Shown: one piece after another, positions 7,178-25,611 of the stretch
How the letters are laid out: the number at the start of each line of letters is the position of its first letter
Position numbering within the stretch: position 1 is the stretch's first letter
NCBI GenBank assembly: GCA_937893635.1
Contig: CALBGF010000266.1
Location: 1-25,611 of the forward strand
Reading direction: 5' to 3'
DNA length: 25,611 nucleotides
Origin: an uncultured Mollicutes bacterium
GTDB taxonomy: Bacteria > Bacillota_I > Bacilli_A > RFN20 > CAG-826
Notes under the pieces: model-generated
The model's database searches: none
Told to the model about the DNA's origin: nothing
What the model saw: the letters and a program-made list of their open reading frames with translations, nothing else
Program-made: the position numbers and the translations under genes

Positions 7178-9435
7178 TGGAAACTAATAGTAAAAGACAC
7201 TTTGCTTTTAAAATTACTGCAATAATATCAAGCGCTATTGCATTAATTTTTCTTGTGCTTTCTATTGTTTCTATAATTTTAATTCCCAAAGTATCTCCTT
7301 TAAATCCATCAAATAATGAACCGGTTGTTTCTTTAGTAAGCGACACGGATAATTTGTATTATTCAACAACAAATAATATAAATAAAGCTACTAAGGAAAA
7401 TGAATTAATTAGTTCATATAATTTGATAGAAGATGTTAATACTAAATATTTATTGGATATTACATCTATAAAAAGTCTATATGAAACAGATACTAACCAA
7501 TTAGTGGCGGTTTCTCAAAACGCTAATGATGGATATTTATTCTTAATTAATAAATTTGATTTATCTTTAAATAGTTATGCTAAATTTAATGGTGAATTTT
7601 CTAAATTTGCCACAAGTGGCGATGACATTGTTATTGCATCTAAAACTGGTAAATATACATTATATTCAAGATATAGCATTAATAGTTTTTCTAGTGGCGT
7701 TTATAAAAGTGGTTATTATTATCGAATTACTGTAGGAAAAGATCGAAATAGTTATACATTAAATCGAAATGAATCTATTACAACATTAGAAATAGCAATT
7801 AAAGATAATTATTTATATGCAATAAATTCTGCTGGAATTAGTGTAATGGATTTAGATTTCACTTATAATAACTTCCATACTGATGAAGTAAAAAACAAGT
7901 GGGAAAACACAGAATTTATTGATAAATATGGTGTTAAAGATACACCGACTAAAGATACAATTACCCTTGATTCAAGCTCGTTTAAAGAAAGTACATCTTA
8001 TTATGATGTAATTGGTCTTTCTATCAGCGGTGGCTTTTTAAATTCTAAACAAAAAGCAGTTTATTATATCGGAACAGATAATTCTTTATATTCCTTAAAC
8101 TTTAGCGATATAAAAAGAAAAAGACCCGAAGGATCAATAAGCGAAGATAAAATAAATAGATATGAAAATATAAAGTTTAAAAATTTAGTCGAAACTGATG
8201 GATGTTTATTTTATGACGATAAAGCAGAAATTGCCTATGTTATTTTTAAAGCATCAAATAATGTTAGTAAAATAGCTTTTGAAAATGAGTCACCTGTATT
8301 AGATTTTACAATTAGTGTGGAATTTAATATTGTTTATTTAGTTACTGATCACACTGACGATTATGTTGCTTATTTATTTAACAATAGTAATAAGAGTGAA
8401 AGTGGCGTATATTTAGCTAAATATTTTAATCCAACCGCATATTTACATTTTGGATGGACAAAATCAGCATTTATTTATTTCATTGTATTTACAGTGTTAT
8501 TTGTTCTTGTGTCTATTATTTCATGGCTAGGGACATTAAAGAAAGATTATGATAAGAAAATAATCAAGCAATTTAAGGCTATTTATAAATGTAAGTTTAT
8601 ATATTTAGCAATGGCTCCATCATTAATATTGCTAATTATGTTTTGCTATTATCCCGCAATTGCTTCGATTGGATTATCATTCTTTGATTATACAAAAGAA
8701 AATCCAGCGTTTAACTGGAACAATTTTGCTAATTATAAATTTGTATTTACAGATCCTAATATGCTAAGTGCGTTTAAAAATATGTTTTTATTCTTACTTG
8801 TTGATATTGTTACGGCAGTATTGCCACCTTTGATTTTCGCTTTCTTCTTATCAACAATGAAAAATAAAAAATTATCCAAAATAATGCGAACATTATTATT
8901 TATTCCTGGCATAATTCCTGGCATTGCTGGTAATCTTATTTGGAAAGAAGCAATACTAGGTAATTTTGGTGTTCTTAATGAATGTATTAAAGCTTGTGGC
9001 GGTAGTGTGATTAGCTTTTTAGCTCAGTCTTCAACGGCAAAGTGGTCACTATTATTAGTGGGATTCCCTTATGTAGGAAGTTATTTAATTTTCTATGGCG
9101 GAATGATGAATATTCCAAGCAGTTATTACGAGGCTTGCGAATTAGAAGGAGTAGGGCCATGGAGAAGATTTGTACGTATTGATATTCCGTTAGTATTTCC
9201 ACAATTAAAATATGTCTTTGTTTGTTCGATAATCAATTCAATGCAAAACTTTGCTCGAGTTCAATCAATTACTAATGGTGCTTATGACACTAATGTGCCG
9301 GTACTTGAAATGTATGATCAAATTATGGATGGAAATTATGGCAAAGCTTCGGCAATTGCATCAATTATATTTGTTTTATTGTTCTTTGCAACATACTTCA
9401 CAATGAAACAAAAGAAAAAGGAAATGAAGGTGTAA
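7177..9435 (+). CDS. MalF-type ABC sugar permease with large N-terminal extracytoplasmic domain
   Basis: The ATG shares its A with the TAA of the upstream gene, so translation is probably coupled. The product is 752 residues, against about 290-320 for a simple permease. Residues 9-36 form a first membrane helix, followed by about 390 extracytoplasmic residues (37-428). A second helix lies at about 431-452. From about 470 it is a standard binding-protein-dependent permease, with the EAA loop YYEACELEGVGPWRRF starting at 650 and then IDIPLVFP. The extra domain has repeated short strands of the type LYYSTTNN, YLYAINSAGISVMDLD and VYYIGTDNSLYSLN, suggesting a beta-propeller-like fold (inference). 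E. coli MalF also has an extracytoplasmic domain, P2, but it is smaller and lies between helices 3 and 4. The partner permease is next. Confidence 0.88.
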   Translation: METNSKRHFAFKITAIISSAIALIFLVLSIVSIILIPKVSPLNPSNNEPVVSLVSDTDNLYYSTTNNINKATKENELISSYNLIEDVNTKYLLDITSIKSLYETDTNQLVAVSQNANDGYLFLINKFDLSLNSYAKFNGEFSKFATSGDDIVIASKTGKYTLYSRYSINSFSSGVYKSGYYYRITVGKDRNSYTLNRNESITTLEIAIKDNYLYAINSAGISVMDLDFTYNNFHTDEVKNKWENTEFIDKYGVKDTPTKDTITLDSSSFKESTSYYDVIGLSISGGFLNSKQKAVYYIGTDNSLYSLNFSDIKRKRPEGSISEDKINRYENIKFKNLVETDGCLFYDDKAEIAYVIFKASNNVSKIAFENESPVLDFTISVEFNIVYLVTDHTDDYVAYLFNNSNKSESGVYLAKYFNPTAYLHFGWTKSAFIYFIVFTVLFVLVSIISWLGTLKKDYDKKIIKQFKAIYKCKFIYLAMAPSLILLIMFCYYPAIASIGLSFFDYTKENPAFNWNNFANYKFVFTDPNMLSAFKNMFLFLLVDIVTAVLPPLIFAFFLSTMKNKKLSKIMRTLLFIPGIIPGIAGNLIWKEAILGNFGVLNECIKACGGSVISFLAQSSTAKWSLLLVGFPYVGSYLIFYGGMMNIPSSYYEACELEGVGPWRRFVRIDIPLVFPQLKYVFVCSIINSMQNFARVQSITNGAYDTNVPVLEMYDQIMDGNYGKASAIASIIFVLLFFATYFTMKQKKKEMKV

Positions 9436-10323: not shown

Positions 10324-11625
10324 ATGGCAACATTAAAACTTGAAAATATCAATAAAATTTATGATAACAATGTGCAAGCAGTTCATGATTTTAATTTAGA
10401 TATTAATGATAAAGAATTTATTGTATTTGTTGGACCATCAGGATGTGGTAAATCCACAACTCTTCGTATGATTGCGGGTCTAGAAGAAATTACTAGTGGT
10501 AATTTATATATCGATGGCACTTTAGTTAATACGATGATGGCAAAAGATCGTGATATTGCAATGGTTTTCCAAAATTATGCTTTATATCCACATATGACAA
10601 TATATAAAAACATGAGTTTTGGATTAGAAATAAGAAAAATTCCTGTTCCAGTCTTAGATAAAGATGGTAATGAAATAAAAGTCATTGATAAAAAAAGAAT
10701 TAAATATTTATCTAACAATATCCGTGAATGGAAAAGACAAGATGAAAATAACAATCCGAAAAAGTATAATGAACAAATTTCAAAAGCAGAGGAAGAAATT
10801 AAATATTTAAGTTCTAATGCCACTGCAACAAAAGTTAAGTATATTCATATGAGTAAAGCGGAAATTGATAAGCGCGTGAAAGATGCAGCGGAAATTTTAG
10901 GATTAACACAATATTTAAAAAGAAAACCAGGCGAACTTAGTGGCGGACAACGCCAAAGAGTGGCACTAGGAAGAGCAATAGTAAGACATCCTAAAGTATT
11001 CTTAATGGATGAACCTTTAAGTAATCTTGATGCTAAATTAAGAGTACAAACACGTAAAGAAATTATAAAAATCCATCAAGAAGTAAACGCCACAACAATA
11101 TATGTTACTCATGATCAAACAGAAGCAATGACTATGGCAGATAGAATTGTCATTATGAAAGATGGATTTATTAAACAAATTGGAATTCCTAAAGAAGTAT
11201 ATAATGACCCAAATAATATGTTTGTTGCAGGATTTATTGGAAGCCCAAGTATGAACTTTTTTAAAGGAGTCATAAAAGGTAACAAATTCATCTTTAATGG
11301 AGATGAACAAGTATCTGTAACTTTAAAAAATGCCCCTAAAAAATATAGTGATAAAGAAGTTATATTAGGCGTTAGACCAGAAAGCGCATATATAAAAGGT
11401 GATTTAATTAATAAAGAGTTAACAAATTATTCTATTAAAATAAATTGTACTTTAGTGGAAATGTTAGGCAACGAACAACTTGTTTATGGTGATATTTCCG
11501 GACAAAGTTTTTATAGCAAAATTTCTAGCGATATTGATGTTAAAGTTGGTGGAACTTATGAATTTGCTTTCGATGTCGATAAGATGTATTTGTTCGATAT
11601 AGATACAGAAGAAAGGATTAAATAA
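10324..11625 (+). CDS. Sugar ABC transporter ATPase (MsmX/UgpC/MalK type) with helical insertion
   Basis: This 433-residue protein hydrolyses ATP to power the importer. All nucleotide-binding motifs are intact: Walker [10 protein letters not shown] (37-45), Q-loop Gln83, signature LSGGQRQ (205-211), Walker B VFLMDE (225-230) and switch His263. The C-terminal third is the TOBE-type regulatory domain (GVRPESAYI). The usual length is about 370. The extra residues form a Lys/Glu/Asn-rich insertion at about 106-177, between [12 protein letters not shown] and the SKAEIDKRV helix, where standard members have almost nothing. AGGAGG precedes the start. MsmX-like ATPases often serve several importers, so other transporters may share it. 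Confidence 0.95.
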
Positions 11626-11983: not shown

Positions 11984-13617
11984 AATATATATTTCCTAAA
12001 AGAATAAAAGCATCATCTAACATTGCTAATGTTAGTGATTTATTAAAAGAAGATACAATACAAGTGGATATTGATCCAATTGGTTCTATCTGCTTTCAAA
12101 ATAATGATTATGTTATTTTCGATTTTGGCAAAGAACTTAATGGTGGTATTCGCTTACTTACATCATCTATCTCTCAAAACGGAAAAATTAGATTAAGATT
12201 TGGCGAATCTCTAACTGAAACATGCATTGATATAAATGAAGAAACATGTGCCACAAATGACCACGCTTTAAGAGACTTTGAAGTTAAAGTACCACAAATG
12301 AGTGATCAAACATTTGGACAAACTGGATTTAGATTTGTGCGAATTGATTTTAGTGGTGACTTTTGGAATGTTCAACATATCATTGGCGCAATTGACGTTG
12401 ATGACCGAGAAGAAGTGGGCGTTTTTAAAAGCGATGACCAAAGATTAAATGATATTTGGAATATTGCTTCTTATACTTTGAGAGTAAATTTACATAATGG
12501 TGTTATATGGGACGGAGTTAAAAGAGATCGCCTTTGTTGGATTGGCGATGCTTATAATGAAATTAAAGCATTAGAATGTCTTTATGATAAACAAGATGAA
12601 ATTAAAAACGTTTTAGAATTTACTATTAAAGATTTAGAAAACATTTTCTTTAACGCTAATATGATTCCAACAAGTTATACATTGTGGTGGATAATAATTT
12701 TATTAGAAAAATATAAACACGATGATGATGCTAAATATTTAGAAAAACAAGTAAGCATCTTAAAACCATTAATTAAGAGAATTAATAGTTATATTGATGA
12801 AAATGGAAGTATTAAATTGCCATTTAATTTCGTTGATTGGCCAACACACTGTAATAATCCACAAAACGAATTAGATTATATGAAATTAAATGACGAGGAA
12901 GTTGGCGTTAAAGCCTTAACTCTTATTGCTTTTAAAAAATTAAAGAAAGAACTAAATAAAATAGATGTTCATAACTTAGATGAAGATTTAAACTCAGCAA
13001 TAAGTAAATTAGATAATTCTACTTATGAAGTTCAACATTTTAAACAAGTTGCAGCTTTAGTTTATCTAGCTTCTAAAGAAGATAAAAATTGTCTAGATAT
13101 TCTTGAATTAGGAAAAGCTAAAGGATTATCTACATTCCAAAGTTACACAATTTTATCGGCATTAGCTAAATTAGGCAAGCATGATGAAGCATTAGAAATT
13201 ATTAAAGAATATTATGGCAAAATGATTGATTTAGGCGCTACGACATTCTTTGAAGACTTTGATATTGATTGGGCAAATAATGCTGCAAGAATTGATGAAT
13301 TCCCAAAAGAAAATGAAATTGATTTCCATGCAACATATGGTCAGTTTTGTTACAAAAAATATCGTCACTCTCTTGCACATGGTTGGGCAGTAGGTGTCAT
13401 TCCTTACATTGTGGAAAATGTTATTGGTTTAAAGCAAATTTCTAAAAATCATTTTACATTAAAGCCAAATTTATCGTCGTTAAATGAAATTCATTATGTT
13501 TATCCTCATGAATATGGAAAGATAAAATTCGATATGAAAAAAGTAAATGGTCATGTTGAAGTAGAAATAAATGGTCCTAAAGGAATAACAATCGAACTCC
13601 AGGAGGTAATGTTATGA
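11980..13617 (+). CDS. GH78-like (alpha-L-rhamnosidase-related) intracellular enzyme, short form
   Basis: This 545-residue protein has no signal peptide, so it should act in the cytoplasm on imported sugars. An N-terminal beta-sandwich (about 40-140, with RFGESL and FGQTGFRFVRIDFSG) precedes an alpha/alpha-barrel. The GH78 signature normally reads DCP..RxERxGWxGD. Here it is W177 D178 GVKR D183 RLCW187 I G189 D190, so the Glu of the RxER part is Asp183. The C-terminus (SLAHGWAVGVIPYIVENVIG, then LKPNLSSLNEI and a final beta domain) matches rhamnosidase C-terminal regions. It is far shorter than typical GH78 enzymes (about 900 residues) and lacks their extra N-terminal modules. The altered motif makes the exact substrate, or even activity, uncertain. 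AAAGGG precedes the ATG, which overlaps the previous stop. Confidence 0.75.
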   Translation: MKYIFPKRIKASSNIANVSDLLKEDTIQVDIDPIGSICFQNNDYVIFDFGKELNGGIRLLTSSISQNGKIRLRFGESLTETCIDINEETCATNDHALRDFEVKVPQMSDQTFGQTGFRFVRIDFSGDFWNVQHIIGAIDVDDREEVGVFKSDDQRLNDIWNIASYTLRVNLHNGVIWDGVKRDRLCWIGDAYNEIKALECLYDKQDEIKNVLEFTIKDLENIFFNANMIPTSYTLWWIIILLEKYKHDDDAKYLEKQVSILKPLIKRINSYIDENGSIKLPFNFVDWPTHCNNPQNELDYMKLNDEEVGVKALTLIAFKKLKKELNKIDVHNLDEDLNSAISKLDNSTYEVQHFKQVAALVYLASKEDKNCLDILELGKAKGLSTFQSYTILSALAKLGKHDEALEIIKEYYGKMIDLGATTFFEDFDIDWANNAARIDEFPKENEIDFHATYGQFCYKKYRHSLAHGWAVGVIPYIVENVIGLKQISKNHFTLKPNLSSLNEIHYVYPHEYGKIKFDMKKVNGHVEVEINGPKGITIELQEVML

Positions 13618-15395
13618 GAGTAAATTCTAAATTATTACTTTGTATGACTTTAGCGCTTGCTATGGCTAGTTGTAATAACACCAAAACATATACGCTTACT
13701 TATGTAAATGGTGATAGTAGAACGACAATTAAAGTAAAAGCAGGTGAGGTAGTGGAAGAGTTATTAAGTATTGAAACCAAAACTGGTTATGATGCTTATT
13801 GGACCATTGATGATAAACAAGTTAGTGATGGCTTAGTTTATGATTATGGGGAAGATAAAGAAGCAGTATTAGTTTATGTGCCACATACTTGGAAAATTGT
13901 TTTTGATAATGAAGAACATACAAGAATTAATGTGACATATGGTCAAGCTATAGGAACATTACCCGATATTCCTTCAAAAACCGGTTATAAAAATGGTGTT
14001 TGGAAAATTGAAGATACTATTATTACTTCTTCAACTATTTATAATTGGGACAAAGATACATTAGCAACACTAGAATATGACAAAGAATTATACGTTTTAA
14101 GCTTCGAAGGTCTTCCTGAGGGCAATAATATTAAAATTGCTTATAACTCGTTTGTAGGGGCCTTGCCGGCCGTTCCAGAGTATACTGGCGATATTAAAGA
14201 ACATTTTGTTGGTTACTGGAGCATTGATAATGAAACAATTAATGAAAACACCATTTGGAAATATGAAGAAAATAAAGCTGCTAAACCAGTTTATAAAGCA
14301 TTTAGTAACAATTTAGAAAATGGCACTACAATTAATACAATGTCTAGTGTTATTCAAGAATTATATGACGCTAAAGAAGAAATGCCTTCTAGTGATGGTG
14401 GTTCATTATTGGAAGTTGCTAAAAAATATATTAATAAAGAAAACAATTTGACTAATATTAGTTATAAATTAAGTTGGAGTGAAGTAAAACCATTTGAATA
14501 TTCTATAGTTAGTGTAAGTGATAATATTAATTTCCAGAACGCAAAAAAATATGTAACATACAATCATTACATTAATTTGAGTGATTTAAAAATGAATACT
14601 ACTTATTACTATCAAATAGAAGGTGTTGAAGGCAATTATTCTGTATTGTCTGATATATATAATTTCAATGTATCAGATGGTGCAAGAATCATGTCTATTG
14701 ATGGAGTTGAGAACTTCCGTGATATTGGTTCATATCAAACTACTATTGAAAACAAAAAGATTAAACAAAATATGATTTACCGAAGTGGTAACGCTGATGG
14801 AATTACTATTTTAGGTAAAAAACAAATTAAAGAATTGTATAACCTTAAAACAGAATTAGATTTAAGAGAAAAATCTTATTGGGTTAATCAATCTTATTTT
14901 GGCGAAGATGTTCAATATAAACATGTAAGTAACGAACAAGGTGGGGTTTATTATATTGATCGTGGTGTTGATTTAGATCAAACTGGCATTGCTACTGGTG
15001 GAGTAACATTAAAAGAAGAACTATTAACTTTTATAGATAGTAATAATTATCCAATTAATTTTCATTGCGCCATTGGTAGAGATAGAACAGGTACGCTAGC
15101 AATGTTTCTATTAGGACTACTTGGAGTAAGTGAAGCGGATATTTGCTTTGATTATGTCATTAGTTTAATTAGTGGTAATGCTAAAGCAAATAATGAAGCA
15201 CAATTATTAGAACTTTATAACAATATTTATCAAACAATGCAACATATAAAGAATTTAACAGGTCAAACAAAATTTGATGAAGCTGTTAAAGCTTATTTAA
15301 CCACTAACTTCACTGGATCTAACGAATCGGCCAAAGTGGGATTAACTAACGAGCAAGTTGATTCGATTAAAAATATTATGTTGGAGGATAAATAA
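13614..15395 (+). CDS. Lipoprotein protein-tyrosine/phosphoinositide-phosphatase-like enzyme
   Basis: This 593-residue surface lipoprotein (lipobox MASC, Cys20) starts in an ATGA overlap with AGGAGG upstream. Three InlB-like modules (about 25-90, 91-157 and 158-230) share the pattern ..LP.I...GY..G.W.I....I...T.YNW... A fibronectin-III-like domain follows (about 278-355, with YYYQIEGVEG). From 358 it is a Y_phosphatase3/LipA/MptpB-type phosphatase: VENFRDIGSY (365-374), MIYRSG, TELDLRE, and the P-loop HCAIGRDRTG at 484-493 with nucleophile Cys485 and Arg491. The catalytic residues look intact. Related bacterial enzymes hydrolyse phosphotyrosine or phosphoinositides. Being extracellular and inside a glycan operon, a phosphorylated sugar or host lipid is plausible (inference). 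Confidence 0.88.
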   Translation: MRVNSKLLLCMTLALAMASCNNTKTYTLTYVNGDSRTTIKVKAGEVVEELLSIETKTGYDAYWTIDDKQVSDGLVYDYGEDKEAVLVYVPHTWKIVFDNEEHTRINVTYGQAIGTLPDIPSKTGYKNGVWKIEDTIITSSTIYNWDKDTLATLEYDKELYVLSFEGLPEGNNIKIAYNSFVGALPAVPEYTGDIKEHFVGYWSIDNETINENTIWKYEENKAAKPVYKAFSNNLENGTTINTMSSVIQELYDAKEEMPSSDGGSLLEVAKKYINKENNLTNISYKLSWSEVKPFEYSIVSVSDNINFQNAKKYVTYNHYINLSDLKMNTTYYYQIEGVEGNYSVLSDIYNFNVSDGARIMSIDGVENFRDIGSYQTTIENKKIKQNMIYRSGNADGITILGKKQIKELYNLKTELDLREKSYWVNQSYFGEDVQYKHVSNEQGGVYYIDRGVDLDQTGIATGGVTLKEELLTFIDSNNYPINFHCAIGRDRTGTLAMFLLGLLGVSEADICFDYVISLISGNAKANNEAQLLELYNNIYQTMQHIKNLTGQTKFDEAVKAYLTTNFTGSNESAKVGLTNEQVDSIKNIMLEDK

Positions 15396-15397
15396 TC

Positions 15398-17740
15398 ATG
15401 GAAAGAAAATTATTTATAAGTTTAGGAATGTTACTATTCGGTGTAATAAGTTCAAATGTTTCCTCTAATAATGCTTTAGTTAATAAACAAATTAGAAGAG
15501 CTACCGGCGATGAGCATAAACTAATTTTTAAAGATAATGCTCGAGGAGTAGGAAACTATGCTTCATCTAAAAATGGTTGGTGGAATGTTGATAGTTGTAC
15601 ATTTGCAAATAACACAGTAACTATACCAAATGGTTCAACAGCCTACTTTTCTAATGGTAGTATTAAAGCAAATGAAACTTATGTTATCTCTTATGATTTA
15701 AAAACTAAAGGAGATGCTTATTTCAAATTTGAACTTAATACACCTACATGGAAAAACTTTCAAATTGGTACATTTAACAATAGTGACTATGTCCATTATG
15801 ATTTAATTTATACATCAACTACTGATTATAGTGATATGCAATTTTATTTCCAAGTAACTGGTGGAGTAGAAATATATGTTCAAAACTTATATGTGTATAG
15901 TACTACTTCTATATCAGTAACTGAAGGACAAGCAATAGGTACTTTACCAGAAATAGCTTCAGCAGAAGGTAAAAAAGGATATTGGACTATTGATGATACT
16001 AAGATTACTAATGAAAGTATTTATAATTATAGTGTTGATAAAGTAGCTCATGCTAAATATGAGGATGTTTGTTCAATTACTTATCATAATGGCGGTGCAG
16101 TAGATTTTGCTAGTGATACTAAATATTGGAATAGTGGAACAAACTTAGTTAAAGAAGATAATGTACTTCATATGAAAAATGAAGATAACTTAACTGATCA
16201 ACCAATACATACTTATGATGTAAGTGATTCATCATTTACAATGTTAGAAGCAGGTAAGAAATACAAATTAGTATTTGATATAAAGTGTGATAATTTATAT
16301 TTACGAATTGCTAATTGTTCGCCTTGGGAAATGCTATTAGAAGGATGGACTAATCACACAGAATACACAAAGAAAGAATTAACATTTGTAGCTTCCTCTA
16401 GTGGAGTAGCAACAATAAGATTTAGAGTAGATACAACAGGTAATGTATTTATTAAAAATTTAAGATTATATGAAATTTCTACCATTGAATATTCTAAAGA
16501 CCAATCATTAGGTACTTTGCCTACAATTAAGTCACAAGGAAAGTATAATGAAGGCACTTGGACTATTGATGGACAAGATATTACGAGTGAAACAATATTT
16601 AACTATGAAACACTAAATAAAGAAGCATATGTTAAATATTTAGAAAAGTTTACACTTACTTATTATGGCGCAGAAGATATTTATACAACTAATTTAGCAA
16701 AAAATATTAATTATTGGACTAAACAAGGCAATGTAGATTTATCAAAATCTTATGATGAAGAGGCTTTAGTATTTAAAGGTGAAAACTCAGCAATGATAAG
16801 ATATTGTGAACCTAATGTATTTAAGTTGATTGAGGGCGAAACATATGTTATTAAAGGTAAAATTAAAACAGGTGATAGTAAAATTCATTTAGTTATTAAT
16901 AATGACTGGGCTAACACAATTTTATTAACTCATTATCAAGCTAAAGAATATCAAGAAATAAATATTGAATTTATTGCTCCTAAAAACGATGGTGATAATT
17001 CTTTTATTGATTTTCAACTTGCTAGCGCTAATGGGGAAAAACAATTTTCTATCAAAGATTTTTATATAACCCATATTACAAAATTAAATTATTCCGCTAA
17101 TGATAGTTTGAGTGATTTGCCAAACTTTCCACAAGGTAGCGGATGGGTGGTTGATAATACTTTGATTAATAAAGAAACTAAATATAATTTTAGTGATGAT
17201 AAAATTGCTTATTTAGCTCCAATTATCTCCTATAATGGTGAAGAAAATATTACTTATCGAATTGGAAGAGAAATAACTATTGATGGTTTGGATATTAAGT
17301 CTTTCTATGCTGGTGAAAACTCTTATAAATATACTTGGTATAACACTAATAATGAAGTTGTTAATGAATTAACTCAACCAGGTAGTTATAAATTAGGCGT
17401 AAGAGCAGTTGATATTAATGGAAGTATTTCATTAAATGAAGTAAGAATTAGTGTTAATGTTTTAGAAAGAGATTCAATTGCTCCTAATTGGACAAGAGAC
17501 GGAGAAAAATATATTTATCCAGAAGAACTTAATTTAAAAGTTCATGCTGGATGGTATGCACAATTAAATTTAGAAGCTTTAGATGATATCGATGGTATCG
17601 TTGAGGTTACATATGATTTTAATGGTTTAGTAGATGAATTTAATAGATTTGTTGTTGGTAGTGGTGACGTAAAATGTATTGCTAAAGATTTTAGCGGCAA
17701 CCAAATTCAAATTATTATTCATCTTGTAGTTGTGGAGTAA
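15398..17740 (+). CDS. Secreted multi-domain carbohydrate-binding-like protein (paralogue A)
   Basis: This 780-residue protein has a signal peptide (basic start, then LFISLGMLLFGVISS) but no lipobox and no C-terminal anchor, so it is probably released. Three CBM4/9-like jelly-roll domains (about 40-168, 225-360 and 418-560) alternate with InlB-like modules carrying LGTLP.I...G.WTID...I...T..NY (about 169-222, 361-415 and 560-607). Each jelly roll has the ETYVISYDLKTKGD-like or GKKYKLVFDIKCDN-like strand. The end (about 608-780) looks like Ig/HYR repeats (VKCIAKDFSGNQ). No catalytic motif is seen. Residues 147-368 are identical, in protein and in DNA, to residues 152-373 of the opposite-strand gene at 23584-25236. 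GGAGG lies ahead of the ATG. A scaffold or glycan-binding role is inferred. Confidence 0.8.
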   Translation: MERKLFISLGMLLFGVISSNVSSNNALVNKQIRRATGDEHKLIFKDNARGVGNYASSKNGWWNVDSCTFANNTVTIPNGSTAYFSNGSIKANETYVISYDLKTKGDAYFKFELNTPTWKNFQIGTFNNSDYVHYDLIYTSTTDYSDMQFYFQVTGGVEIYVQNLYVYSTTSISVTEGQAIGTLPEIASAEGKKGYWTIDDTKITNESIYNYSVDKVAHAKYEDVCSITYHNGGAVDFASDTKYWNSGTNLVKEDNVLHMKNEDNLTDQPIHTYDVSDSSFTMLEAGKKYKLVFDIKCDNLYLRIANCSPWEMLLEGWTNHTEYTKKELTFVASSSGVATIRFRVDTTGNVFIKNLRLYEISTIEYSKDQSLGTLPTIKSQGKYNEGTWTIDGQDITSETIFNYETLNKEAYVKYLEKFTLTYYGAEDIYTTNLAKNINYWTKQGNVDLSKSYDEEALVFKGENSAMIRYCEPNVFKLIEGETYVIKGKIKTGDSKIHLVINNDWANTILLTHYQAKEYQEINIEFIAPKNDGDNSFIDFQLASANGEKQFSIKDFYITHITKLNYSANDSLSDLPNFPQGSGWVVDNTLINKETKYNFSDDKIAYLAPIISYNGEENITYRIGREITIDGLDIKSFYAGENSYKYTWYNTNNEVVNELTQPGSYKLGVRAVDINGSISLNEVRISVNVLERDSIAPNWTRDGEKYIYPEELNLKVHAGWYAQLNLEALDDIDGIVEVTYDFNGLVDEFNRFVVGSGDVKCIAKDFSGNQIQIIIHLVVVE
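15489..15547. repeat. 59-bp identical inverted block, copy 1
   Basis: These 59 bp in the 5' part of gene A are identical to the reverse complement of 25081-25139 in gene B. They encode the shared segment just after both signal peptides (RRATGDEHKL and following). Between this block and the 666-bp repeat the genes are clearly diverged, so this may be a separate short conversion tract or conserved coding sequence. Confidence 0.9.
15835..16500. repeat. Perfect 666-bp inverted repeat, copy 1
   Basis: I compared every base of this stretch with the reverse complement of 24119-24784 and found no difference. It covers codons 147-368 of gene A, including an InlB-like module and the second jelly-roll domain. 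The first mismatch on the right is a synonymous C/T at 16501 (GAC against GAT). On the left identity stops just before the ATG codon at 15836. The flanks are homologous but diverged. Confidence 0.97.
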
Positions 17741-17744
17741 GTTT

Positions 17745-19934
17745 ATGAAAAAGGGATTTATTACAATACCAACAGATAGCAATTTTGTTGAAGGGACTAA
17801 AAAGTTCATTGACTATTGGGGAGCGGATGCAGTTAGAGATTGTGATGGTACAACTCTACCTGAAAATGTAAAAGATTTTAACTGCGAAGTTTATAAAACA
17901 TATTTTATTGTTCGTGGTGATAATGCATACGCTAAAAAGCATAAAGAATATCTTCAAAATTTTGCTTTGATTTCAAAAAGATATACAGCATTTAGTGATA
18001 CTTTAGAAATACCGTTATTAGAAGATATTATTGAAGGTCAATGCGAAGTTAATTTATTTGAATATAAAAAATATTGGCAAGTGTTTGATCGAACAACTGG
18101 TAAATTGCATCAAGATTTTGATTATATTGGAGATAACAAGGTACTAATTAAAAATGCTAAAAAGTTCCATGAGTATACTGTGAATTATTTTGCTTTAAAT
18201 ACTTGGGATCCAGTTCAAATTTATAATTATGTTACTAATAATTGGACATGTGAAAAAGATTTAGATTTAGATCCGATTTATGATGAAGCATTAGAACATA
18301 TGTTGGTCAATATGGAAAATTGGCTTAAAGAAAACAAGGATGTTACAGTTGTAAGATTTACTACTTTCTTTTATAACTTTTTCTTCTTATGGATTGATGG
18401 CAAAAAACAAAAATTATTCGATTGGCATAACTATGCTTCGACTGCTTCACCAAAAATGTTTGAAAAATATAAAGAAATATATCACGAGGAAATTACATTA
18501 GAAGATTTAGTAACTGAAGGATATTACGCTAATAGATTTATAGTTCCTAATGCAAGAACAAGAAAGTATATAGATATGGTACAAAAACTTTGTTGTGGTT
18601 GGGCAAAACAATTTGTTGATTTGTGCCATAAGTATAATAAAAAAGCTATGATGTTTGATGGGGATAATCGTATTGGCACTGAGCCATATAATCCTTATTT
18701 TGCTTCAATTGGCTTAGATGCTGTTGTTGGTGCACCGCATAGTGGTATATATATTCGTCAATTATCATCAATGACAGGAATTAAATACGTAGAAGGAAGA
18801 TTAAATCCTTATTTCTTCCCAGATACTATTCCTAATGATGAAAAAGCTACGAACGATTTAACAATATTTTGGAATAATGAAAGAAGAGCTATGCTAAAGA
18901 AACCTCTTGATCGTATCGGCTTTGGTGGTTACTTATCTTTAGCAAGTAAATATCCAAAATTTTGTGAAACAATTAAAAATATATGTGATGAATTTAGACT
19001 TATAAAAGAAAATGCTGGTAAAGAAGGTGCCTTAAATCATGTTAGTGTTGGAATCATTTCTTATTATGGAAAACTAAACACTTGGATGATGAATGGTATT
19101 GGCATTGATGATGTTTGGCAAGATAATGAAGCTTATAGTGGATTATTATTAGCTTTAGTGGGACAACCAGTTGATGTAAAGTTTATATCATTTGATGAAA
19201 TCGTTAATGGAGAAACTATTGACGTCGATGTATTAATTACTAATGGAATTCCTCAAACATCTTTCTCCGGAGGAGAATGTTGGAAAAACGAATTATTGGT
19301 TTCTAAAATTCGTGAATTTGTCTTTAATGGTGGTGGATTTATTGGCATTGGTGATGCAAGTGGATACCAATATCAAGGTAAATATTTCCAATTATCAGAT
19401 GTAATGGGTGTTGATAAAGAAGTTGGTTTCTCTTATATGCTCTACCATGATTTAGATGTTGATTTACATAAACATTTTATAACAGATGGATTAGATAATT
19501 TAAATCTTCTTAATTATAGTGCTTCGGCTTCTAAAAGTGTTTATTCACTTGGCGCTAAAGTGCTAGATGTTCGTTATGATAATCATTTTCCAAAAGGTTC
19601 TCCACATACTGGACATTTGTCTTTAGCAATAAATAATTATGGCTTAGGCAGAAGCGTGTATTTTGCTGGTTTAGCGGATGGATATGAAAATAGAAGAACA
19701 ATCTATAAATCAATTTTATGGGCCGCTAAAAAAGAAGAAAAATTATATAAAGCATTTAGTAAAGCTTTTGAAACTGACTGTTTCTATTATCCATCAAGTG
19801 GAAATTACGCAATTATAAATAATGTTAATAAAGAAATCAAAACTACTTTTTATGATATAAATCAGAAAAGTAAAGAGATTATATTAAAACCAAATGAAAT
19901 TAAATGGATTAAAGGTGATAAGCATGAAAATTAA
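17745..19934 (+). CDS. GH112 beta-galactosyl phosphorylase (GLNBP or galactosyl-rhamnose phosphorylase)
   Basis: The start is ATG 17745, with GTGGAG ahead. A TTG at 17730 would place the start inside the upstream gene. The 729-residue cytoplasmic protein matches GH112 from end to end: ITIPTDSNFVEGTKKFIDYWG then ADAVRDCDGT near the N-terminus, KFHEYTV and TWDPVQIYN, VVRFTTFFY, and MMFDGDNRIGTEPY at 302-315. The Asp of the GDN part (Asp307) aligns with the general acid of bifidobacterial galacto-N-biose/lacto-N-biose phosphorylase. The end is the usual small beta domain. GH112 enzymes split beta-1,3-galactosyl-HexNAc, or beta-1,4-galactosyl-L-rhamnose, with phosphate to give alpha-galactose 1-phosphate. 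Two rhamnosidase-like neighbours favour the second specificity, but the sequence alone does not decide. No galT, galK, nahK or galE lies in the window. Confidence 0.95.
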   Translation: MKKGFITIPTDSNFVEGTKKFIDYWGADAVRDCDGTTLPENVKDFNCEVYKTYFIVRGDNAYAKKHKEYLQNFALISKRYTAFSDTLEIPLLEDIIEGQCEVNLFEYKKYWQVFDRTTGKLHQDFDYIGDNKVLIKNAKKFHEYTVNYFALNTWDPVQIYNYVTNNWTCEKDLDLDPIYDEALEHMLVNMENWLKENKDVTVVRFTTFFYNFFFLWIDGKKQKLFDWHNYASTASPKMFEKYKEIYHEEITLEDLVTEGYYANRFIVPNARTRKYIDMVQKLCCGWAKQFVDLCHKYNKKAMMFDGDNRIGTEPYNPYFASIGLDAVVGAPHSGIYIRQLSSMTGIKYVEGRLNPYFFPDTIPNDEKATNDLTIFWNNERRAMLKKPLDRIGFGGYLSLASKYPKFCETIKNICDEFRLIKENAGKEGALNHVSVGIISYYGKLNTWMMNGIGIDDVWQDNEAYSGLLLALVGQPVDVKFISFDEIVNGETIDVDVLITNGIPQTSFSGGECWKNELLVSKIREFVFNGGGFIGIGDASGYQYQGKYFQLSDVMGVDKEVGFSYMLYHDLDVDLHKHFITDGLDNLNLLNYSASASKSVYSLGAKVLDVRYDNHFPKGSPHTGHLSLAINNYGLGRSVYFAGLADGYENRRTIYKSILWAAKKEEKLYKAFSKAFETDCFYYPSSGNYAIINNVNKEIKTTFYDINQKSKEIILKPNEIKWIKGDKHEN

Positions 19935-21201
19935 GGCAATTGTCGTAGGATATGGAGATCGAGGTAGTGTTTATAGTAATTATGCTATAACGAATCCAGA
20001 TAAATTTGAAGTTGTGGGTGTCGTAGACCCTAATCCTTTTAAGCAAGCATTATGTAAAGAAAAATTTAATTTAAAAGATTCACAAGTTTTTTCTAGCATT
20101 GATGATTGCTTAAAAACTAAACCACAATGTGATTTATTTATTAACGCCACTATGGATCAATATCATTATGAGATTATGAAAGCAATATTAAATGCTAAGT
20201 ATAATCTTTTAACAGAAAAGCCAATTGTGGGTGACAAAGATCAATTATTAGAACTTAAGTCTTTAGCAGAAAAAAATAATTGCCAAGTATTTGTTTGTCA
20301 TGTTTTAAGATATACTCCTTTTTATGCCACTATTAAAAAGATGATATTAGAAAATAAAATTGGTAAAATTTTTTCTATCCAAATGGATGAACATGTAGGC
20401 ATTGCTCATTATGGTGGAAGTTATGTTCGTGGTAAATGGAACAATGAAGAAAAATGTATGTCTTCTTTCTTATTAGCAAAAAGTTGTCATGATATTGATA
20501 TTATGTGTTGGCTTAATAATAATACAACACCAACTGAGGTTGCGGCTTTTGGTGGAAGATACTTTTTTACAAGAGAAAATGCACCCAAAGAATCTACTGA
20601 ATCATGCTTTGATTGTCCTTTAGAAAAAGAATGTTTATATAGTGCAATAAAACATTACATTGAATGTAACTGGTCGAGCAATTTAACTTGGCCACAAATT
20701 AATAAAAAAATAGAAGATATAACTTTAGAAGATAAGGTTAATTTCTTAAAAAATTCTTTGTATGGGAAATGTATCTTTAAAGTTGATGAAGCAGATATTA
20801 CTGATCGTGAAGCAATTATAGTTAATTTTAAAGATGGATCAGTTGGAAACTTTAATCAAATTGGCGGAGCGCCACAAGCAGGAAGATACATTCACATCGT
20901 TGGCAGTTTAGGAGAAATTGTTGGAAATGCCGAAAGCGGCATTATAACTTATATGCCTGCAAGCAGAGATTCTTTGATTTGTGAAAAAATTGAAATAGAT
21001 GTTAATAAAGAAATTAATACAAACTTTGGTTTCAGTGGACATATGGGCGGAGATTACGCCATTATGGAGTCAGTCATAAATTATTTAAATGGTGACAAAT
21101 CATCAATTTCAATAACTTCACTTAATGATTCGATTAATAGTCATCTTGTTGTTTTTGCTTCCGAAGAAGCTAGAAAAAAAGACAAAGTAGTAAAGGTATA
21201 A
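19924..21201 (+). CDS. Gfo/Idh/MocA-family NAD(P)-dependent oxidoreductase
   Basis: The start is set at ATG 19924, which has AAAGGTGA ahead and puts the Rossmann strand KIKAIVVGYGDRG at the very N-terminus. It overlaps the GH112 stop by 11 bp. An ATG at 19894 would add ten residues unlike the family. Of 425 residues, the first 120 form the nucleotide fold (GYGDRG at 9-14; TEKPIV with Lys99-Pro100). The catalytic segment is KSCHDIDIMCWL (Lys186, His189, Asp190). A CxxCPxxxxC cluster (Cys228, 231 and 237) is a feature of one branch of the family. These enzymes oxidise or epimerise sugars and cyclitols, or hydrolyse glycosides by an NAD-dependent route. The substrate here is probably a sugar released in this pathway. 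Confidence 0.93.
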   Translation: MKIKAIVVGYGDRGSVYSNYAITNPDKFEVVGVVDPNPFKQALCKEKFNLKDSQVFSSIDDCLKTKPQCDLFINATMDQYHYEIMKAILNAKYNLLTEKPIVGDKDQLLELKSLAEKNNCQVFVCHVLRYTPFYATIKKMILENKIGKIFSIQMDEHVGIAHYGGSYVRGKWNNEEKCMSSFLLAKSCHDIDIMCWLNNNTTPTEVAAFGGRYFFTRENAPKESTESCFDCPLEKECLYSAIKHYIECNWSSNLTWPQINKKIEDITLEDKVNFLKNSLYGKCIFKVDEADITDREAIIVNFKDGSVGNFNQIGGAPQAGRYIHIVGSLGEIVGNAESGIITYMPASRDSLICEKIEIDVNKEINTNFGFSGHMGGDYAIMESVINYLNGDKSSISITSLNDSINSHLVVFASEEARKKDKVVKV

Positions 21202-21202
21202 T

Positions 21203-23482
21203 ATGGAAAAGAAATATTTTGAGTTAGCTAAACCAATTTGGGCTAAAGGCAAAGAAGAAGAGTTAAATAGTTGTTTGTTTTTTAAAACAATTATTAATAA
21301 AAAAGGAATTTGCAAAATTAATGTAACCGCAAATAATTTTTATCGTATTTTTATTAATGGCAAACTTAAATTTTATGGTCCTAGTAGAGATGCACATTTT
21401 TATTATCGTGTTGATGAATATAAAGTTAATTTGAATCAATCGGAAAATATTATCATTATAGAGGTATCAGGAAGTAATTGTTATTCATTTTATACCACTA
21501 ATACAAGACCATTTTTACTTTGTGAAATAAAAGATGAAGATAATAGTGTGTTAAGCTATACAGGTGATAATGAATTTTTAACTTTTAATAATGATACAAG
21601 AATTAGAAAAGTTACACGCTTTTCTTATCAAAGACCATTTAGTGAATCGTATGTCATTGATCGAAAATTACATTATTTCTTTCTTGATGGTATTAATGCA
21701 TATACCAAACTTGAAACTAAAATTTTAGAAAATGTAAAATTAGATAAAAGAATAGTTCACTATCCTAAATTATCTAAAGTTAAATTTAATTTAGAAGAAT
21801 TTGGAACTGCCTTTATTAATGAGAACAAAAAAATATATGAAGATCGTTATCAAACAGCAGATTTCTTAAAACTATTTCCAAAAAGTGAATGGGAAATAGA
21901 CTCTAATAAAGTTGCTAGTCAGTTAGATTTTAAATTAGGACAAGAGAAATCTAAACTACTCAAGAGTATGGAATTTAACACATATTCTAATGATGTTTCT
22001 TTAACTGGCTTTATTAATTTAAATGTTAATGTAAAAAAAGAAACACTCATATATATTCTTTTTGATGAAGTAGATATAAGAGATAACAATAATCCTAATT
22101 TAATTGGTATTACTTTTTACCGAAATACTACACATAACTGTGTGACTTATTCTTTGAAACCAGGATATTATAATTTAATCACTTTTGAACCATATACTTT
22201 AAAAAATGCTCGAGTTGTTGTATTGAGCGGAGAAGTATTTATTCATAGCTTTAGTTTAATAAAATATGAAAATCGAGATGTAAAAATTAAATATGAGTTT
22301 GAAAATGAAAAAATAAATCTTGTATTAGATGCTGCAATTAATACTTTTAAACAAAATGCAGTTGATTTATTGACTGATTGTCCGAGTAGAGAACGTGCGG
22401 GTTGGTTATGTGATTCATTTTTTAGTGGACAAGCTGAACCAATCATTACTGGAATAAATTTAGTTGAAGAAGCATTTTTAGATAATTATTCAAAATGTGA
22501 TAAATCGCAAGTTCCTTCTGGAATGATACCAATGTGTTATCCAGGTGATTTTCCTGATAAAGGATTTATCGCTAATTGGAGTCTATGGTATATTTTAGAA
22601 ATTTATAATTATATAAATAGAGGCGGAAACAAATCTATTTTAAAATCTTCAATTTCTAATATTAAAGGGTTACTTAATTATTTTAAAAATTTTGAAAACG
22701 AATATGGTTTACTTGAAAATCTTCAAGGTTGGATTTTTGTTGAATGGAGCAAAGCTAATGATTTAGATTTTGTTAAAGGTATTAACTATCCTTCTAATAT
22801 GCTTTATAGTGAAGCACTTATTAAAGCTGGTGAACTACTAAATGATAAACCTTTAATCAAAAAAGGTAATGAATTGAAAAAGACAATTCATAAATTTTCT
22901 TTTAATGGCGAGTTTTTTATTGATAATTCAATTAGAAATGAAAAAAATGAAATTGTTCCAACTGACCATACAACAGAAACTTGTCAATATTATGCATTTT
23001 ATTTTAATATAGCTAACAAAGAAGAAGATTCTAATTTGTTTAATACTATGATTAAGTATTTTGGAGAATATCGTGATGATAAAACTGTTTATCCTAATGT
23101 TTATAAATCAAATGTTTTGATGGGAAATCTTTTAAGATTAATGATTTTGAATAGATATAATTTATCAAAACAAGTTTTTAAAGAATCAATTGATTATTTT
23201 TACAAGATGGCTATAAAAACTGGAACATTATGGGAATTTGATTCAGTGTATGCAAGTTTAAATCATTGTTTCACGAGTTTTTTAGTTAATATTATTTTAA
23301 CCGCTAATTTTGGGCTAGAATCAATTGATTATAAAAACAAAATTATTTATATGAAAAATAGCGCTTTATTAGAAACCGCTAAGGTGGAAATACCAATTAA
23401 AAATGATAAATTTATAATTACTGCTAGTGAAGGAAAGTTAAAATATAAATTGCCAAAAGATTATAAGATAATTTGGAAATAA
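21203..23482 (+). CDS. GH78 family alpha-L-rhamnosidase-like enzyme, intracellular
   Basis: This 759-residue protein has no signal peptide. N-terminal beta domains (about 1-350) include the lectin-like segment TANNFYRIFINGKLKFYGPSR seen in GH78 proteins. The alpha/alpha-barrel signature is intact: D392 C P S R E397 R A G W401 L C D404 S, where the Glu of the RER part is the likely general acid. Further family-like features are PSGMIPMCYPGDFPDKGFIANWSLWYI and a terminal beta domain. GH78 enzymes release terminal alpha-L-rhamnose, but many members with the RERAGWLCDSFF type of motif are uncharacterised. It starts 1 bp after the oxidoreductase, is the last gene of the operon, and is followed by a terminator. 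A working pair with the shorter GH78-like protein at 11980 is plausible. Confidence 0.85.
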   Translation: MEKKYFELAKPIWAKGKEEELNSCLFFKTIINKKGICKINVTANNFYRIFINGKLKFYGPSRDAHFYYRVDEYKVNLNQSENIIIIEVSGSNCYSFYTTNTRPFLLCEIKDEDNSVLSYTGDNEFLTFNNDTRIRKVTRFSYQRPFSESYVIDRKLHYFFLDGINAYTKLETKILENVKLDKRIVHYPKLSKVKFNLEEFGTAFINENKKIYEDRYQTADFLKLFPKSEWEIDSNKVASQLDFKLGQEKSKLLKSMEFNTYSNDVSLTGFINLNVNVKKETLIYILFDEVDIRDNNNPNLIGITFYRNTTHNCVTYSLKPGYYNLITFEPYTLKNARVVVLSGEVFIHSFSLIKYENRDVKIKYEFENEKINLVLDAAINTFKQNAVDLLTDCPSRERAGWLCDSFFSGQAEPIITGINLVEEAFLDNYSKCDKSQVPSGMIPMCYPGDFPDKGFIANWSLWYILEIYNYINRGGNKSILKSSISNIKGLLNYFKNFENEYGLLENLQGWIFVEWSKANDLDFVKGINYPSNMLYSEALIKAGELLNDKPLIKKGNELKKTIHKFSFNGEFFIDNSIRNEKNEIVPTDHTTETCQYYAFYFNIANKEEDSNLFNTMIKYFGEYRDDKTVYPNVYKSNVLMGNLLRLMILNRYNLSKQVFKESIDYFYKMAIKTGTLWEFDSVYASLNHCFTSFLVNIILTANFGLESIDYKNKIIYMKNSALLETAKVEIPIKNDKFIITASEGKLKYKLPKDYKIIWK

Positions 23483-23496
23483 GATAATATTATTTT

Positions 23497-23528
23497 AAAA
23501 GTGGGTTCTGGATTGAACTCATTTTTTT
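23497..23528 (+). terminator. Rho-independent terminator of the main operon
   Basis: A 12-bp stem (23497-23508 with 23515-23526, including two G-U pairs) closes a 6-base loop. The right arm runs into a T-run at 22-28 of the 23500 block, that is 23522-23528. It lies 14 bp after the stop of the last operon gene and is correctly oriented for + strand transcripts. Confidence 0.85.
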
Positions 23529-23538
23529 GTGCAAATAA

Positions 23539-23570
23539 AAACACAAGAGGCTGAATTTTCTCTTGTGTTT
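23539..23570 (-). terminator. Rho-independent terminator of gene B
   Basis: AAACACAAGAG (23539-23549) and CTCTTGTGTTT (23560-23570) form an 11-bp perfect stem with a 10-base loop. Read on the - strand it is followed by TTATTTG. It lies 13 bp after the stop of the - strand gene. Together with the terminator at 23497 it insulates the two convergent transcription units. Confidence 0.85.
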
Positions 23571-23583
23571 AGATAAGTGTTAA

Positions 23584-25236
23584 TTATTTAGAATATTTTT
23601 TCTTTTCGATAACATAATAACCAGAAATTGTTACAATTCCTAAAATTGCAAATAATACAATTAATGAAGTCTTATCATAATTATTAGAAGAAGTAATAAC
23701 TATGCCAGAATTAATTCCATATTCTCCTTCAGTTTTAATGGATCCATCTAAAACATTTTTAATGTAATTGATTGTTGCTCCAATTGTAACTTCTTCAACA
23801 TCAAGTGTATTATTAATAATATTTTTATCAGTATCACTTAATGATTCATATTTTTCCATTAAATTGTTAAATGTTGTTTGAGCTTCGCTATTTTTAACTA
23901 ATATAGCACAAATACCATTTTCTCCACCAAGTGCACGTAATTGTTTCCATTCGGCAACGAATTTGTCAGTTGTGTATAAATCATATTTTACATAAGCGTC
24001 TTTATTTGCAGAACTATAATTAAATTTTGTTTCATTGGTAATAGTTTCACCATCAATAGTCCAAACACCAGTATCAAACTTTCCAAGATTGATTTCAGGC
24101 AAAGCACCTAATGATTGATCTTTAGAATATTCAATGGTAGAAATTTCATATAATCTTAAATTTTTAATAAATACATTACCTGTTGTATCTACTCTAAATC
24201 TTATTGTTGCTACTCCACTAGAGGAAGCTACAAATGTTAATTCTTTCTTTGTGTATTCTGTGTGATTAGTCCATCCTTCTAATAGCATTTCCCAAGGCGA
24301 ACAATTAGCAATTCGTAAATATAAATTATCACACTTTATATCAAATACTAATTTGTATTTCTTACCTGCTTCTAACATTGTAAATGATGAATCACTTACA
24401 TCATAAGTATGTATTGGTTGATCAGTTAAGTTATCTTCATTTTTCATATGAAGTACATTATCTTCTTTAACTAAGTTTGTTCCACTATTCCAATATTTAG
24501 TATCACTAGCAAAATCTACTGCACCGCCATTATGATAAGTAATTGAACAAACATCCTCATATTTAGCATGAGCTACTTTATCAACACTATAATTATAAAT
24601 ACTTTCATTAGTAATCTTAGTATCATCAATAGTCCAATATCCTTTTTTACCTTCTGCTGAAGCTATTTCTGGTAAAGTACCTATTGCTTGTCCTTCAGTT
24701 ACTGATATAGAAGTAGTACTATACACATATAAGTTTTGAACATATATTTCTACTCCACCAGTTACTTGGAAATAAAATTGCATAGAATCAGTATCTTTGC
24801 TTGGTGTATAAACAAAATCATAATGGATATAATCACTATTATTTGTTAATACTTCTGGTTGGAGATTTGTCCAGTCTGGTGAATTTGCATTAAACAAGAA
24901 ATATGTATCTCCTTTAGTTTTTAAATCATAAGAGATAACATAGGTTTCATTTGCTGCAACACTACCTACATTAAACCAAGAGAGAGCACCAGTAGGTATA
25001 GTTACTGTGTTATTTGTAAACGATGCAGCCCCAGTACCTGTCTCCCACCAACCAGCATTAGATAAAGCATAGTTTCCTAATCCTCGAGCATTATCTTTAA
25101 AAATTAGTTTATGCTCATCGCCGGTAGCTCTTCTAATTTTTCTTACATTATTAGCAGAATTATTACTTGCGGAACCGGCGCCAAATACTACTGCTAAAGA
25201 TGCTAATAATATAGACGTCTTTTTTAAGTTTTTCAT
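23584..25236 (-). CDS. Membrane-anchored carbohydrate-binding-like surface protein (paralogue B)
   Basis: The start is at 25236: GGAGG lies 10 bp ahead and MKNLKKTSILLASLAVVFGAG is a good signal peptide. An open frame extends further upstream but would cross the promoter. The product has 550 residues. Two CBM4/9-like jelly rolls (about 42-173 and 230-365) alternate with two InlB-like modules (about 174-228 and 366-420). Next comes a short helical domain (425-500, with EWKQLRALGGENG and TIGATINYIKNVL), then a linker and a single membrane helix (523-543) with a basic tail KKKYSK that should keep the C-terminus inside. Residues 152-373 are identical to 147-368 of protein A. No catalytic motif is visible. 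It probably displays glycan-binding domains on the cell surface. Confidence 0.82.
   Translation of the reverse strand: MKNLKKTSILLASLAVVFGAGSASNNSANNVRKIRRATGDEHKLIFKDNARGLGNYALSNAGWWETGTGAASFTNNTVTIPTGALSWFNVGSVAANETYVISYDLKTKGDTYFLFNANSPDWTNLQPEVLTNNSDYIHYDFVYTPSKDTDSMQFYFQVTGGVEIYVQNLYVYSTTSISVTEGQAIGTLPEIASAEGKKGYWTIDDTKITNESIYNYSVDKVAHAKYEDVCSITYHNGGAVDFASDTKYWNSGTNLVKEDNVLHMKNEDNLTDQPIHTYDVSDSSFTMLEAGKKYKLVFDIKCDNLYLRIANCSPWEMLLEGWTNHTEYTKKELTFVASSSGVATIRFRVDTTGNVFIKNLRLYEISTIEYSKDQSLGALPEINLGKFDTGVWTIDGETITNETKFNYSSANKDAYVKYDLYTTDKFVAEWKQLRALGGENGICAILVKNSEAQTTFNNLMEKYESLSDTDKNIINNTLDVEEVTIGATINYIKNVLDGSIKTEGEYGINSGIVITSSNNYDKTSLIVLFAILGIVTISGYYVIEKKKYSK
24119..24784. repeat. Perfect 666-bp inverted repeat, copy 2
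   Basis: This is the inverted partner of 15835-16500, identical over all 666 bases by direct comparison. It covers codons 152-373 of gene B. The two copies face each other with 7618 bp between them. No transposase, integrase or terminal repeats border either copy. Confidence 0.97.
25081..25139. repeat. 59-bp identical inverted block, copy 2
   Basis: This is the partner of 15489-15547, located in the 5' part of gene B just after the signal-peptide region. It is identical in reverse complement. Confidence 0.9.
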
Positions 25237-25297: not shown

Positions 25298-25326
25298 ATA
25301 TTACACCACATAAATATTAGTGTCAA
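25298..25326 (-). promoter_or_regulatory. Sigma-A promoter of gene B
   Basis: On the - strand a consensus TTGACA (25326-25321) is followed after 17 bp by TAATAT (25303-25298). The predicted transcript starts near 25291, leaving about 55 bases of leader before the ATG at 25236, with GGAGG close to the start. It is the best promoter match in the window. Confidence 0.75.
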
Positions 25327-25483: not shown

Positions 25484-25611
25484 ATGAAGAAAATTAAAGC
25501 AATTGTTAAAGATAAAACCACTATCGAATTAGTGGAATCAGGAGAAGTTGGAGATATTATTGATTTAAGTGATTTAGTGGAAGTTGACACAAGTTATTTA
25601 GAAACAATTAT
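25484..25611 (+). CDS. 5' end of an unidentified protein gene (partial)
   Basis: The start ATG has AAGGGAGAGG ahead, and the frame is open to the window end (42 complete codons). The fragment begins MKKIKAIVKDKTTIELVESG and continues with an acidic stretch (EVGDIIDLSDLVEVD). It has no signal peptide and no motif I recognise. It is divergent from gene B, with about 250 bp between the start codons. Confidence 0.65.
   Translation, partial: MKKIKAIVKDKTTIELVESGEVGDIIDLSDLVEVDTSYLETI

Follow-up and report, generated by a model that had tools for sequence, protein, structure and literature searches.

In the literature consulted here, cases of gene conversion between paralogous surface-protein genes come mostly from pathogens, those in Helicobacter, Borrelia, Neisseria and mycobacteria being among them, and are usually explained by immune escape or a change of receptor. 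In antigenic variation from silent cassettes, of the pilE/pilS and vlsE type, the donors are silent or incomplete and constant ends flank the variable part. The excerpted account of babA and babB of Helicobacter pylori describes one segment that is alike within a strain and others that are alike between strains, with conversion put down to intragenomic recombination, and also chimeric genes (PMC3960876, citing Pride and Blaser 2002). For homA and homB of the same species, the portion of the source used here distinguishes three segments, one under concerted evolution and one that is highly variable and allelic (PMC2795765); here too the likeness within a strain is put down to intragenomic conversion. 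The conversion of vlsE is segmental and unidirectional, as stated in an extract of PMC11499132. No report of the gene pair described below was found in a limited literature search on surface-paralogue conversion, conversion of carbohydrate-binding modules (CBMs) and phosphorylases.

The pair lies in a 25,611-nucleotide stretch of DNA from an uncultured Mollicutes bacterium, which was analysed whole (the window; 28.5% G+C). The genes of the region are as follows.

15398..17740, plus strand: gene A, 780 aa, with a signal-peptide-like start, CBM-like modules and a beta-rich C-terminal part; probable donor
17730..19934, plus strand: lacto-N-biose phosphorylase (LNBP) family gene with a three-domain Pfam match; a TTG start is listed and the true start may be slightly later
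19894..21201, plus strand: Gfo/Idh/MocA-type oxidoreductase gene (Pfam)
21203..23482, plus strand: alpha-L-rhamnosidase-like (six-hairpin) glycosidase gene, its 3' end towards gene B
23584..25236, minus strand: gene B, 550 aa, with a signal-peptide-like start, two CBM-like modules and a helical part; probable recipient
25298..25326, minus strand: promoter-like site upstream of gene B, TTGACA-17-TAATAT, 10 of 12

The 3' ends of genes A and B point towards each other across three genes, and the description of the pair in the initial annotation as two convergent paralogous surface-protein genes holds for layout and paralogy; the surface location is probable from the signal-peptide-like starts, the terminal hydrophobic stretch of B and the CBM-like folds. 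Gene A is one of a series of plus-strand genes that spans 995 to 23482 and includes parts of an ABC sugar transporter; B faces this series from the far end. The start of gene A is 2 bases past a gene with a tyrosine-phosphatase domain, and its 3' end abuts or overlaps the start of the LNBP family gene. The product of the latter matches Lact_bio_phlase, LBP_M and LBP_C, all above cut-off, and a solved LNBP (4e-143); by this architecture it is assigned to the LNBP family, with a putative substrate. The likely start of gene B is 25236, the GTG at 25590 being just the mechanical start of the open reading frame (ORF). Promoter-like sites showed no excess in the region (77, against a mean of 72.9 and sd of 7.9 in shuffles).

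Some neighbouring genes have features of their own. The MalK/UgpC-like ATPase at 10324-11625 has an apparent insert of ~65 residues in its helical part, with a Pfam match that spreads 212 residues over 135 model positions and NCBIfam matches in two stretches; the insert looks longer in the ATPase beside the A-like gene of another genome (G195, L003). The MalF-like permease at 7177-9435 (752 aa) is matched by transporter models only from about residue 467, its long N-terminal part lying outside them. The product of the gene at 13614-15395 is lipoprotein-like and tyrosine-phosphatase-like; to the eye, the repeats at its N-terminus recall the linkers of A and B, and a remote relative, P0015, has both PF13350 and PF16820. 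At 25484-25611 another plus-strand gene begins and is cut by the end of the window; its 42 residues gave no Pfam or PHROGs match.

The predicted models of A and B (mean pLDDT 81.8 and 77.5, respectively) both contain tandem beta-rich modules. Compared with solved structures, the model of B gave Z scores of 11.9 to 13.8 among the 50 matches listed, many of which are carbohydrate-binding modules (CBM4, 16, 22, 29 and others; 6-20% identity for the CBMs), and same-fold proteins of non-CBM kind are also among them. The best listed match was 8xmz for module 1 of B (rmsd 2.2 over 122 residues) and 1w8z for module 2 (rmsd 2.4 over 119 residues). In the predicted models the modules of A and B have the jelly-roll fold of known CBMs, so that both genes appear to carry tandem jelly-roll modules resembling carbohydrate-binding modules, and glycan binding by them is plausible. 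Pfam gave a PKD_3 match in gene B and no CBM match for A or B; the remote relative P0014 carries PF02018, which we take to be CBM_4_9. The C-terminus of gene B has a hydrophobic anchor-like stretch and a basic tail, as read from sequence and model, and in gene A no C-terminal anchor was seen, further beta-rich domains following the repeat. A sequence search of the PDB returned two weak matches (E 0.012 and 0.017), which were taken as chance. The 50 Foldseek matches listed for the whole A model include Cry and Vip3 insecticidal proteins, reelin, CBM22 tandems and glycosidases; with TM-scores of at most 0.15 by query length, they were read as common beta-sandwich modules and as nothing more specific.

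The shared parts of the two genes, and the part of module 1 beside them, are as follows.

15835..16500, plus strand: repeat copy 1, in gene A, whole codons 147-367, covering the last strands of CBM-like module 1, a linker and module 2
24119..24784, minus strand: repeat copy 2, in gene B, about residues 152-372
15578..15834, plus strand: the portion of gene A's module 1 not covered by the tract, with 55% amino acid identity to B and dS 0.46
15489..15583, plus strand: second near-identical patch, gene A side, paired with 25045-25139 (95 nt, 95%)
25045..25139, minus strand: second patch, gene B side, partner of 15489-15583

The sequence 15835-16500 is the reverse complement of 24119-24784 over 666 bp with 0 mismatches, and it is not extendable by one base at either end. 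Around this exact repeat (the tract) the inverted likeness continues imperfectly, over 15776-16530 / 24089-24843 (755 nt in all, 97%); judged by the strands of the A model, the tract ends at about the end of module 2. A third, separate inverted patch, 15656-15763 / 24859-24966 (108 nt, 79%), lies nearer the 5' ends of both genes. The second patch, in which residues 31-60 have 0 synonymous differences between A and B, is perhaps an earlier or shorter conversion tract.

The homologous part in the codon alignment of the two genes is residues 31-414 of A (1149 sites), with 118 mismatches and a longest clean run of 666. When the 118 mismatches were placed at random in 20,000 trials, the longest clean run reached at most 152, and the 666-bp identity is far beyond chance. 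All 221 whole codons of the tract and 80 of its 80 fourfold sites are identical, as against 28 of 36 fourfold sites in the 162 codons outside it, where codon positions 1, 2 and 3 differ about equally (75, 78 and 74% identical). The Nei-Gojobori dS, which is 0 across the 147 synonymous sites of the tract, reaches 0.46 in module 1 and 0.48 in the linker that follows. The DNA-level alignment along both genes, which had been proposed as a check, thus bears out both the identity at every third position and the clear divergence of the flanking parts that the initial annotation had reported. Diversifying selection in module 1 was not shown, its dN/dS of ~0.77 having a bootstrap range of 0.45-1.31. 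The same annotation had seen a mobile element beside neither copy; in agreement with this, Pfam gave no mobile-element family in 15 of the 18 listed ORFs and one end fragment, the other three being small antisense ORFs outside the scan.

A search with A returned 15 proteins and a profile search with B-types returned 12, all within the 15 and including the B of the window; the family may be larger because each search scored only ~8000 candidates. The alignment holds 13 rows, namely seven A-types (gene A and P0001-P0006) and six B-types (gene B, P0007 and P0009-P0012), 11 of them relatives, and the remote P0013-P0015 were left out of the segment tables. Relatives were compared as proteins; the analysis of silent sites, and of where the tract ends, covers only the DNA of the window. 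The pairing of A and B within one genome is certain for the window pair only, P0002/P0007 and P0005/P0012 having been paired by likeness; P0006 and P0011 likely share a contig, a longest contig of 157126 bases being listed for both. Across the 11 relatives, the C-termini of A- and B-types remain distinct, and so do the signal peptides except in one pair.

The search was also extended beyond these proteins. GTDB contigs scanned with the A-type alignment yielded 106 pattern-matching stretches, none of which encodes a relative, the IMG/VR scan for A relatives yielded 0 of 124, and a search of phage records gave no match. With the LNBP protein, one locus was found in GTDB contigs, in a Bacillales bacterium MAG (57% identity), and one match in plasmid records (36%); a search of that MAG with A gave no match, which alone shows little. 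Among genomes related to this MAG, only weak A matches (27-42% identity over parts of A) occurred: in 6 of 224 at the level of its family, in those six again among the 279 of its order, and in 1 of 395 for its class. One genome (G196, L009, 5004-8189) has an A-like gene (~30% identity) after a rhamnosidase-like gene, cut by the contig end and without a second copy to compare. Three named relatives of the rhamnosidase-like protein come from Coprobacillus sp., Bacillales and Bacilli MAGs (43-49%). With the G+C content and the LNBP match, this makes the class Bacilli likely for the source organism, and a gut origin is a guess. There was no sign of a conserved A/B-rhamnosidase layout, as none of the 120 listed of 2606 rhamnosidase-like relatives has a longest contig equal in size to those of the A/B relatives, a weak test with one contig per cluster.

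The identity of A- and B-types was then tabulated by segment, in the order signal, patch, module 1, tract-a, module 2 and linker 2 (% identity).

Gene A and gene B (window): 29/85/55/100/100/63
P0002 and P0007: 29/100/99/100/100/61
P0006 and P0011: 14/88/100/93/52/61
P0005 and P0012: 100/97/100/84/18/27
P0009 (B-type) and P0002: 29/89/92/100/72/59
P0010 (B-type) and P0002: 29/70/48/54/97/63

Every B-type thus has an A-like block, but not one and the same. The comparison with orthologues that had been suggested for a strain-shared tract was run on proteins, setting the window pair against P0002/P0007. All 14 informative sites of the tract place the A and B of the same lineage together, with 0 paralogue-shared, and in linker 2 there is 1 strain-shared site against 11 orthologue-shared, with 7 more of other patterns (Fisher p 1.6e-6). 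The ratio of 14:0 is partly built in, because both pairs are 100% alike in the tract and P0002/P0007 were paired by likeness, and its weight lies in two lineages having apparently been homogenised to different sequences. Residues 31-60 hold 4 strain-shared sites, 1 orthologue-shared site and 4 found in one sequence only; module 1 holds 3 strain-shared and 0 orthologue-shared sites, 24 in gene B alone, 4 in gene A alone and 9 others. In trees, monophyly of the B-types was rejected for the tract (AU p 1.5e-5, in a test that left free two groups of A/B rows with identical sequence) and weakly rejected for module 1 (p 0.032), where there was no starred branch and branches were long.

The B-types are mosaic among themselves. 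P0007 and P0010 agree fully in the signal (100%) and closely in linker 2 and the C-terminus (98-99%) and in module 2 (97%), but in module 1 they are just 48% identical; P0007 and P0009 are 91% identical in module 1 and 72% in module 2. Over the six pairs of gene B, P0007, P0009 and P0010, the signal is 97-100%, the C-terminus 82-99% and module 1 46-91% identical; the more distant B-types P0011 and P0012 are without those ends (P0011: signal 44%, C-terminus 32-36%). Among A-types, the distances measured in module 1 and in the tract correlate with those of the A C-terminus at Spearman 0.89 and 0.82 (21 non-independent pairs), and in the pairs with P0006 the tract (48-53%) is less alike than the A C-terminus (57-65%). 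Because A-type distances agree across segments while those of B-type pairs do not, the simplest reading of these 13 sequences is that copying ran mainly from A to B. The common signal of P0005 and P0012 is 36% identical to that of B and 20% to that of A, and in this lineage copying may have run from B to A, or an inversion may have occurred. The divergent module-1 alleles of gene B and P0010 suggest sources outside those found.

Very probably, then, the old paralogues A and B undergo recurrent segmental gene conversion, mainly from A to B, and this mechanism, the first of the two offered in the initial annotation, is favoured by the blocks that differ in place between lineages, the mosaic B-types and the strain-shared tract. 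A, which lies in line with a putative glycan-use operon and has no visible anchor, and B, with its anchor-like end, would exchange segments through ordinary homologous recombination without crossing-over, A serving mainly as donor and B as recipient. In the latest event here, B would have received from A at least 666 bp, running from the end of module 1 through the linker and module 2. The tract stops where likeness stops: it is bounded on one side by the divergent module 1 of B and on the other by the linker and end peculiar to B, a pattern to be expected when heterology halts strand exchange. Since relatives show copying at other places in the pair, a repeated process is indicated and no one-off duplication. 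Were crossing-over to occur at the site of such copying, ~7.6 kb would be inverted and A and B would trade C-termini.

If such crossing-over were the main process, the ~7.6-kb segment with its three enzyme genes would flip, anchored and anchor-less forms would alternate and conversion would be a by-product. We consider this improbable, and repeat-mediated inversion, the second mechanism offered, found little support. It could act on the long perfect repeats, which face each other within the two genes and keep register with both reading frames, and P0005 has an A-type end with a start nearer to B's (36%) than to A's (20%). Yet start and end are of one type in 11 of the 13 aligned proteins, and P0005 and P0012, which share an identical start, are uninformative; moreover, inversion alone does not give mosaic B proteins or blocks that differ in place between lineages. 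The matched ends speak against frequent or fixed inversion, not against rare inversion. No recombinase was present among the 15 of 18 ORFs scanned, although general recombination needs no dedicated one. Site-specific invertible DNA has a dedicated recombinase and short inverted sites; here the repeat is 666 bp long, and a recombinase, absent from the same 15 of 18 ORFs, could lie elsewhere.

Still less probable is an assembly artefact, by which a metagenome assembler or scaffolder would have put one version of the segment into both genes. Each copy sits in its own flanks, which have relatives, and similar blocks occur at other positions in proteins of other assemblies, including P0006/P0011 with the 157126-base contig; the second small patch is mostly strain-shared too (4 against 1). 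The case suggests that perfect inverted repeats in metagenome contigs may be genuine and merit a check.

Horizontal import of the segment from another strain into B or both genes is hardly credible as the main explanation: the divergent module-1 alleles of gene B and P0010 do suggest other sources, but the tract in A roughly tracks the rest of A, which was probably not replaced, and the copy in B equals the A of its own contig and not that of P0002 or P0003. A very recent partial duplication of A that made or extended B, with no exchange between old paralogues, would account for 0 differences in 666 bp and is just as implausible, being already contradicted by P0007, P0009 and P0010, which share the signal region (97%) and C-terminus (86-90%) of gene B, by the A/B flanks with dS 0.46-0.48 and by A/B C-termini that align poorly; of the very recent homogenisation or duplication first proposed, homogenisation is upheld and simple recent duplication is not, both genes having older relatives with distinct ends.

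Under recurrent conversion, the exchanged unit is a set of modules of sugar-binding type, common to an anchor-less and an anchored protein and lying beside glycan-use genes. This raises the testable question of whether conversion keeps A and B matched to the same glycan or diversifies the anchored B. A tentative extension, which we hold to be possible though rather unlikely, is that B is an anchored display site that swaps glycan-binding modules by conversion, with a constant signal and anchor, A as the standing template and further unseen donors; the facing layout could then allow an occasional inversion that swaps C-termini.

As compared to the known systems, the A/B pair is closest to the bab and hom genes. 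It consists of two paralogues on one contig that are older than the strains compared, as seen from their own relatives and distinct ends, and one segment is alike within a genome and others between orthologues, same-genome status being certain for the window pair only; at the protein level the process would be of a known kind. As far as the excerpted account goes, babA and babB are likewise a pair of paralogous surface adhesin genes with one segment homogenised within the strain, but there it is the 3' segment and both products are outer-membrane proteins, whereas in A and B it is the middle, module-bearing part and the ends are unlike in kind. The copies of A and B also face each other across three enzyme genes. 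With homA and homB, set beside A and B by their description in the portion of the source used, the pair shares one segment under concerted evolution and a variable segment; the hom genes have six discrete alleles of one variable segment, whereas modules 1 and 2 of B vary separately, in far fewer sequences. What the pair has in common with the vlsE type, within the limits of that extract, is segmental copying, probably for the most part in one direction, into a surface gene whose ends stay constant; such ends around a variable part were found in gene B, P0007, P0009 and P0010. The window differs from the vlsE type in being without an array of silent cassettes, the probable donor A being an intact gene of 780 aa with its own export signal-like start, in line with plus-strand genes. 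What appears new relative to the bab and hom genes is the locus itself, the exchange of CBM-like middle modules, the unlike ends, the mainly one-sided, anchored mosaic recipient and the facing layout.
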